From: Methanohalophilus levihalophilus
Lineage (GTDB): Archaea > Halobacteriota > Methanosarcinia > Methanosarcinales > Methanosarcinaceae
NCBI RefSeq assembly: GCF_017874375.1
Contig: NZ_JAGGLK010000002.1
Location: forward strand, 558,001 to 622,000
Direction: 5' to 3'
DNA length: 64,000 nt
Positions within the stretch are counted from its first letter, which is position 1, and the number at the start of each line of letters is the position of its first letter. Position numbers and translations under genes: made by a program. Shown here piece by piece: positions 1,056 to 2,222 of this stretch. The notes beneath the pieces were generated by a model, which was given only the letters and a program-made list of their open reading frames with translations, was not told where the DNA came from and searched no databases.

Positions 1056-2222
1056 GTGTTTGAAGAAATGATTTATCTTGATAATTCGGCATGTACCCGC
1101 CTTGATGAAAGGGTACTCGAGGCCATGAAACCATATTATTTTGATGTTTATGCTGTGGCAACTTCCGAATTCGGCTATTCCATGGGAATTGACGCCAAGG
1201 AAGGGTTGGAAGCATCCCGCGGGACAATCGCTTCAAAATTGGGGGCATCTCCGGAAGAGCTCGTGTTCACCTCCGGAAGCACTGAATCTAGCAACATGGC
1301 GCTGAAAGGTGTGGCTTCTGCACTTAAGAAGAAAGGAAATCATATAATAGTTTCAAAGATTGAGGATTTTCCGGTTTTGAATACTGCAAAAGCTCTTGAA
1401 AAACAGGGATTTGAAGTTGATTATCTTGATGTGGATGGAGAAGGTAAAGTGGATGTTGAATCGCTTGCAAATATCATCCGTGATGATACAATCCTTGTTT
1501 CCATACAGCAGGCCAATCAGGAAATCGGAACTCTGCAGGATATTGAGAATATCGCATCTGTCTGTAAGGAGAAAGACACTCTCCTGCACACTGATGCAAC
1601 ACACAGTTTCACCCGCGTCCCTCTAGATGTTTCGAAAATCCCTGCGGATCTTGTAACAATCTCAGGGCACACTATCCATGGTCCAAGGGGGATTGGCGCA
1701 TTGTATGTTAGTGAAGGAACTCCCCTTAATAAATGGATGGACGGTGGGTTCCAGGAATCCAACCGGAGGGCAGGTGTTGAGAACATCCCTGCAGCAGTTG
1801 GTCTCGCAAAGGCCGTGGAACTGGTTACTCCTGAGGAAACCAAAAAACTCGCAGAAATGCGTGACAGGGTTATTGATGGTGCATTTGAGCAGATTCCTGA
1901 TGTAACTCTTAACGGTAGTCGCGAGGACAGGCTTCCCCAGAACGCGAATGTCACCTTCCACTATGTCGAAGGCGAGTCTATCACGCTTCACCTTGATATG
2001 CGTGGATTTGCAGTTAGCACAGGGTCTGCATGTTTCAGCAAATCTCTTGAAGCCAGTCATGTAATTCGTGGAATAGGTGGAGATCATGAAAGAGCACACG
2101 GTTCCGTACGCTTCACTTTTGGCAGGTACAACACAATGGAAGATGCGGATGCAATTGTTGAGGCAATCAGCGAAGTTGTTGAGCAATTGAGGGTTATCAG
2201 CCCTCTCAGAAATAATGACTAA
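1056..2222 (+). CDS. IscS/NifS-like aminotransferase-fold protein lacking the PLP lysine
   Basis: 388 residues, clearly class V aminotransferase fold of the IscS group: 'YLDNSACTRLD' near the N-terminus, 'FTSGSTESSNMALKG', 'LLHTDATHSF', and an active-site cysteine loop 'STGSACFSKSLEASHVIRG' with Cys326. The lysine that should form the internal aldimine with PLP is absent. The canonical S-G-H-K-x-x-G-P reads S-G-H-T-I-H-G-P, with Thr206 (codon ACT, 1671-1673). The PLP-stacking histidine of 'I-E-H' is Asp ('SKIEDFPVL'), and the usual Gln after 'DAT' is His. GTG 1056 has GGAGGA just upstream; ATG 1068 is the alternative. Position before an IscU gene suggests a scaffold or persulfide role rather than PLP-dependent desulfuration. 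As I recall, the IscS of Archaeoglobus fulgidus also lacks this lysine. Confidence 0.85.
   Translation: MFEEMIYLDNSACTRLDERVLEAMKPYYFDVYAVATSEFGYSMGIDAKEGLEASRGTIASKLGASPEELVFTSGSTESSNMALKGVASALKKKGNHIIVSKIEDFPVLNTAKALEKQGFEVDYLDVDGEGKVDVESLANIIRDDTILVSIQQANQEIGTLQDIENIASVCKEKDTLLHTDATHSFTRVPLDVSKIPADLVTISGHTIHGPRGIGALYVSEGTPLNKWMDGGFQESNRRAGVENIPAAVGLAKAVELVTPEETKKLAEMRDRVIDGAFEQIPDVTLNGSREDRLPQNANVTFHYVEGESITLHLDMRGFAVSTGSACFSKSLEASHVIRGIGGDHERAHGSVRFTFGRYNTMEDADAIVEAISEVVEQLRVISPLRNND

Follow-up and report, generated by a model that had tools for sequence, protein, structure and literature searches.

The closest described relatives of the protein considered here are archaeal IscS homologues in which the Schiff-base lysine is missing. 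The IscS of Archaeoglobus fulgidus is reported, in primary work cited by two sources, to be devoid of desulfurase activity and to ligate the [2Fe-2S] cluster of IscU through its Cys (PMC7585200; PMC9769115), and PLP is described as present in the (IscS-IscU)2 structure even though the lysine is absent (PMC9769115). In 2020, Deere et al. extended this precedent to IscS1 (MA0808) of Methanosarcina acetivorans, which is without the essential lysine and whose function may resemble that of the A. fulgidus protein; IscS1 produced alone ended up in inclusion bodies, and IscS2 from the same organism is a proven PLP desulfurase (PMC7585200). The neighbours of MA0808 and MA0807 were given in that study as four genes of unknown function, with no mention of TusA, DsrE or bacterial homologues (PMC7585200).

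Sulfur carriers have been connected with IscS, or with each other, in several other systems. TusA binds Escherichia coli IscS in competition with IscU, and mixed IscS-IscU-TusA complexes form (PMC11302665). Transfer of sulfur from DsrE to TusA has been shown for the DsrE3A-DsrE2B-TusA proteins of the archaeon Metallosphaera cuprina (PMC4175335). Trafficking through archaeal DsrE and TusA is also what we propose below, but the M. cuprina system transfers thiosulfate during dissimilatory sulfur oxidation, lies beside an Hdr-like complex and is described without mention of IscS. The MIS system (MisS/MisU; Garcia et al., as cited in PMC12442378 and PMC12192291) shares with the present operon the occurrence of IscS and IscU homologues without other ISC factors; unlike the Lys-less operon, it is described there as having a cysteine desulfurase.

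TusA is not mentioned in four papers on archaeal Fe-S systems (PMC12442378; PMC12192291; PMC8351635; PMC10500019). The literature searched, outside of which fall the original A. fulgidus and MIS papers, yielded neither the combination of a Lys-less IscS with TusA/DsrE nor separate signatures for two Lys-less types, and an earlier report of the combination is possible. All this bears on how methanogens and related anaerobes, if they have no functional ISC cysteine desulfurase, provide sulfur for their many Fe-S clusters. The lack of the lysine as such is already published for the orthologue IscS1; added here are a signature, termed class B, that is found in both archaea and bacteria, and a rule connecting lysine loss with TusA/DsrE.

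A TusA-DsrE-IscS-IscU operon in Methanohalophilus levihalophilus

The window, a stretch of 64,000 nucleotides (G000:C2:558001-622000) from the 2.1 Mb genome of this archaeon, carries at its left end four genes in the order TusA-DsrE-IscS-IscU, all in head-to-tail orientation on the + strand and separated by hardly any gaps. The first (396-617, +) encodes a 73-residue TusA-family sulfur carrier (PF01206, 2.7e-22) with a CPxP Cys13 (codon 432-434). It is followed by a gene for a DsrE2-like sulfur carrier of 142 residues (614-1042, +; PF13686, 2.2e-36) with Cys101 (codon 914-916), which scores under the family cut-off of NF047629. The last gene (2237-2872, +) encodes an IscU (NifU_N, residues 5-126; PF01592, 1e-43) that keeps Cys36, Asp38, Cys63, Cys107 and the LPPVK motif and bears at its C-terminus a MIP18/SufT-type FeS_assembly_P domain (residues 138-207; PF01883, 4.3e-13). 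A preliminary description of this DNA had placed the IscS-like gene between TusA/DsrE and IscU, and the Pfam matches confirm these neighbours; the extra domain of IscU was absent from that description. This IscU is the only one in the genome, and the operon holds the only ISC-type pair.

The IscS-like gene (1056-2222, +; GTG start) encodes a protein of 388 residues with a class V aminotransferase fold (Aminotran_5, PF00266, 4.9e-71), scoring below the NCBIfam NifS/IscS equivalog cut-offs (435 vs 530.75 bits; 369 vs 643 bits). Its top PDB match by sequence is A. fulgidus IscS (4eb5, 4hvk, 4r5f), which is ~47% identical and has a TM-score of ~0.87 to the AlphaFold model; E. coli IscS is 43% identical. 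This model (mean pLDDT 78.5, with low confidence at the Cys loop and the N-terminus) gives TM-scores of 0.84-0.88 to IscS/Nfs1 structures, including A. fulgidus 4eb5 and E. coli 1p3w (both ~0.85).

Among named relatives, a Methanohalophilus MAG came out nearest, with 92% identity in this protein. Because dN/dS is 0.03 for this orthologous pair, for which the ratio is usable (synonymous sites are saturated in other pairs), the gene is under strong purifying selection, and a pseudogene is ruled out. A plasmid origin was also rejected, with no close plasmid match (best, 46%). IscS1 was listed as possibly non-functional by Deere et al. (PMC7585200); a decaying or non-functional paralogue is nevertheless exceedingly unlikely in view of this dN/dS, residues fixed across three phyla and the status of the operon as the sole ISC pair of the genome.

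The PLP site and distribution of class B

Residue positions are given hereafter in E. coli IscS numbering. Alignment to the E. coli protein reveals five changes (H104D, N155Q, Q183H, K206T and T243V), while T76, D180, S203, H205, R354 and C328 are kept, the last being the protein's own Cys326 (codon 2031-2033) within an STGSACFS motif that follows the SxGSACxS pattern of the loop. E. coli IscS and M. acetivorans IscS2 share the fold and the Cys loop but keep Lys206, His104 and Gln183. The preliminary description had noted that the Schiff-base lysine is replaced by Thr (codon ACT, 1671-1673, +), the stacking His by Asp and the conserved Gln by His, and that the catalytic-loop Cys326 is preserved. 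All of these are borne out by the alignment; its count of three PLP-site changes was incomplete, with N155Q and T243V to be added.

The phylogeny and alignment at Lys206 and His104 that had been proposed at the same time recovered a Lys-less, Asp104-bearing clade. This class B comprises 61 distinct proteins, 60 assigned by a strict signature and one further member (L217) with Asn104, and the window protein carries the full set of class B features (D104, Q155, H183, T206, SACFS and an adjoining IscU-FeS_assembly_P). Position 206 is Thr in 57 members, Leu in three and Val in one, and never Lys; position 104 is Asp in 60 of the 61 and Asn in the other; and His183, Cys328 and Arg354 are present in 61/61. 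Given these counts, the site is fixed in a new form rather than decaying. A sequencing error at 1671-1673, raised earlier as a way in which Lys might be restored, is ruled out by the fixation of the Lys206 loss across the clade. Asp180, His205 and Thr76 are likewise kept in class B, Ser203 mostly so, and further marks of the class are N35V, S37T, D79S, V182T, S329F and L344G.

The residues kept in class B, namely Asp180, His205, Thr76, the substrate-binding Arg354 and, mostly, Ser203, could be taken to favour a cryptic PLP enzyme that binds the cofactor non-covalently and desulfurates cysteine or another substrate by means of a different base, and the A. fulgidus structure is described as containing PLP despite Asp199 (PMC9769115). 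We consider such an enzyme improbable here: His104, Asn155, Gln183, Lys206 and Thr243 are all changed, the one new lysine among the class B diagnostic residues lies at position 228, which is no known PLP contact, and A. fulgidus IscS is reported as inactive (PMC7585200). Because of that structure, PLP may still bind the A. fulgidus type; in class B, a larger share of the contacts to PLP is gone.

Class B occurs in Methanosarcinaceae, Clostridia and Chloroflexota. Orthologues with 71-92% identity were found in most sampled genera of Methanosarcinaceae and in one genome from another family of the same class, while the next IscS homologues within Methanosarcinaceae are only ~44-50% identical. IscS1 of M. 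acetivorans (MA0808) belongs to this clade and, like the window protein, has the STGSACFS loop and PLP-binding residues, including the lysine, that are not conserved; the adjoining IscU1 (MA0807) is larger, at 24.2 kDa, consistent with a fused domain as in the window. In the genome that we take to be M. acetivorans (G074, locus L101), TusA and DsrE lie beside iscS1. Bacterial class B proteins, from Acidaminobacter, Anaerotalea, and MAGs of Dehalococcoidia and Anaerolineae, are ~61-71% identical to the window protein. They are patchily distributed (8/400 sampled genomes in Chloroflexota; 4/198 in the order of Acidaminobacter and 5/398 in Bacillota as a whole), which suggests lateral transfer of the whole operon unit. 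An oddity of a single genus is ruled out by this range of Methanosarcinaceae genera, a further family, Chloroflexota and Bacillota. IscS1 was not found in G035, a genome of the window's genus that is 89% complete. Another genome of the same family (G075:C17:77352-78242) harbours a partial iscS1 copy, 65% identical and interrupted by an in-frame TGA, which is possibly a decaying copy.

Lysine loss and linkage to TusA/DsrE

A search of the archaeal phylum with A. fulgidus IscS yielded a second group of 55 Lys-less proteins, referred to as class A. In these, H205N and loss of R354 are found in 55/55, K206D in 54/55 (Glu in the remaining one) and Q183A in 54/55, whereas His104 and Cys328 are kept throughout (55/55). 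The window protein, with H205, T206, H183 and R354, does not have this signature, and the A. fulgidus type differs from class B further in keeping Thr243 (or Ser). Across both classes, Lys206 is gone from all 61 class B and all 55 class A proteins, and Cys328 is kept in 116/116. In an IscS tree built without the PLP-site columns, each class forms one clade with full support (100/100 for class B), and the two lie apart in the best maximum-likelihood tree; a joint clade of both was not rejected by the AU test (p = 0.378). Two separate losses of the lysine seem to us the more likely history, because the replacements differ between the classes, although a single ancestral loss may also fit. Among the Lys-type proteins of this tree, the one nearest to class B (Ser205, Lys206) is encoded by one of two adjoining Lys-type IscS genes that precede an IscU-like gene in the archaeal MAG SI039_bin59 (L050:4659-7898).

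The accompanying proteins differ as well. DsrE is short and single-domain in class A (best Pfam match, PF02635) and longer in class B (PF13686). The FeS_assembly_P fusion on IscU recurs in the Acidaminobacter class B operon and is absent from the shorter IscU of class A, of which one was tested. In view of these differences, the two operons are built from different sub-families. In the A. fulgidus genome (G335; IscS 100% identical), one class A TusA-DsrE-IscS-IscU cluster (L105:2991-5585) has SepCysS and an additional DsrE-like gene in its vicinity, which hints that class A carriers might serve tRNA-dependent cysteine synthesis.

All reading frames around 194 distinct IscS proteins were scanned with HMM profiles for TusA, DsrE and IscU, and an IscS was counted as linked when TusA and/or DsrE lay on the same strand within 1.2 kb. 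Linkage was found for 54/55 class A and 54/61 class B proteins, or 108/116 Lys-less IscS, and for 0/78 Lys-containing IscS, although IscU was near 53 of those 78. The zero does not reflect a failure of detection, because TusA/DsrE were found, on the opposite strand, near the Lys-type IscS of locus L158, which lies beside a divergent class A operon. A smaller set with a 2.5 kb limit gave 104/112 Lys-less vs 0/53 Lys-containing proteins (Fisher's test, 4.6e-35, inflated by shared ancestry). Such counts overstate the evidence, since on the tree they reduce to two contrasts that are independent by descent, each of which goes the way expected. The linkage spans two bacterial phyla and the window's archaeal phylum and holds in the Anaerolineae locus L046, where the order is IscS-IscU-TusA-DsrE. 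In two Dehalococcoidia MAGs (L045, L051), the class B operon is convergent with a canonical Lys-type IscS-IscU pair ~1.3 kb away.

Seven of the 61 class B loci have no linked TusA/DsrE. The operon-type DsrE is located elsewhere in the genome in Methanococcoides-type genomes, and in G066, which keeps IscS1 (with Pro243), it is absent from the genome. A Chloroflexota class B protein (G883, L201) with Glu205, Leu206 and Ser243 has no TusA/DsrE in its 1.5 kb flanks, and possibly represents a further step of divergence.

As judged from gene neighbourhoods, TusA/DsrE linkage is characteristic of Lys-less IscS. It is not unique to the class B lineage, and the earlier suggestion that it marks a system distinct from that of A. 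fulgidus fails because the A. fulgidus type shares it. The broader proposal of that description, a relay or structural partner for IscU, is partly supported: PLP-site loss with Cys retention is fixed in the clade and the TusA/DsrE linkage is confined to Lys-less IscS in our sample, even if it provides no contrast with A. fulgidus. The linkage could also reflect a common product rather than direct transfer. A further alternative would be an operon devoted to tRNA thiolation or to another cofactor, with IscU as a secondary client, and it could draw on the service of E. coli TusA in both tRNA thiolation and Moco synthesis (PMC11302665) and on the A. fulgidus locus near SepCysS and a second DsrE. 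It seems very unlikely, as IscU adjoins every class B IscS (61/61) and nearly every class A one (53/55), the cluster residues of IscU (three Cys and Asp) are invariant among the partners of Lys-less IscS, and the class B IscU bears an extra Fe-S assembly domain.

Putative sulfur supply to IscU

We propose that the product of the IscS-like gene works without PLP, accepting persulfide from TusA/DsrE and acting with IscU as a co-scaffold, a reading that we regard as plausible, with belief and doubt about evenly balanced. It builds on PLP-site residue loss, conservation of the carrier cysteines, genetic linkage and purifying selection, from which we infer that desulfurase activity is absent, what kind of sulfur is passed on and in which direction, and that the partners form a complex. 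The CPxP Cys is invariant in 98/98 TusA partners of Lys-less IscS, and the DsrE Cys (Cys101 here) is conserved in 85/86. The protein would be a remnant of a cysteine desulfurase turned sulfur acceptor and co-scaffold. Persulfide sulfur would be carried by TusA and DsrE, the first donor being either polysulfide formed from sulfide or a distinct SufS-type desulfurase, and would be handed to Cys326 on its mobile loop, which would then bring it into the cluster site of IscU. Cys326 may in addition serve as a ligand of the forming [2Fe-2S] cluster, in the manner reported for A. fulgidus.

Any contact with TusA would have to differ in class B from the E. coli interface, because R225 and R237, which we take to be part of the TusA-binding arginine patch on E. 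coli IscS, are replaced by Pro and by Ser or Phe, respectively.

A simpler arrangement would be a pure co-scaffold, in which the IscS dimer holds IscU and Cys326 is a temporary cluster ligand, with sulfide as the sulfur source and TusA/DsrE needed for the reduction of clusters, for the buffering of sulfide or at some other step. Such a role has been proposed for A. fulgidus IscS (reported in PMC7585200 and PMC9769115); either sulfide or cysteine can supply M. acetivorans with sulfur (PMC10500019), and the adjacency of IscU in every class B locus agrees with it. It accounts, however, neither for the linkage of TusA/DsrE to Lys-less and never to Lys-containing IscS nor for the strict conservation of the emptied pocket, and we consider it possible but rather unlikely.

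The conserved pocket invites a bolder idea, to which we attach little probability: once emptied of PLP, it may have been rebuilt for new chemistry, such as binding a metal like Fe(II) or activating sulfide or persulfide. Asp104, Asp180 and His183, which are fixed across three phyla, could be the residues involved, with His205 close by. If so, IscS1 would not be a dead desulfurase but would load IscU with iron or sulfide, as a subunit of a new type.

Under the proposed relay from TusA/DsrE, the rule that Lys-less IscS occurs with these carriers and Lys-containing IscS without them, strict in our sample, points to the carriers as the missing sulfur donors. The question of sulfur supply could thereby be addressed in Methanosarcina, for which genetic methods exist, and the structures of A. 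fulgidus IscS-IscU would take their place within a wider sulfur-relay system that archaea share with bacteria.

Elsewhere in the M. levihalophilus genome there is one SufB, and the lysine is present in two SufS-type homologues (L002, L003), one of them above the SufS family cut-off; a Lys-type IscS is absent. Because of these homologues, persulfide may still be made from cysteine through a SufS-type enzyme, and we do not claim that the genome is free of desulfurases. At L003:488-2628 (around G000:C3:137375-138484), the SufS-family protein is encoded directly after an EgtD-type histidine N-methyltransferase; both exceed their NCBIfam cut-offs, and the pairing is a hint that the archaeon may have a pathway resembling that of ergothioneine.
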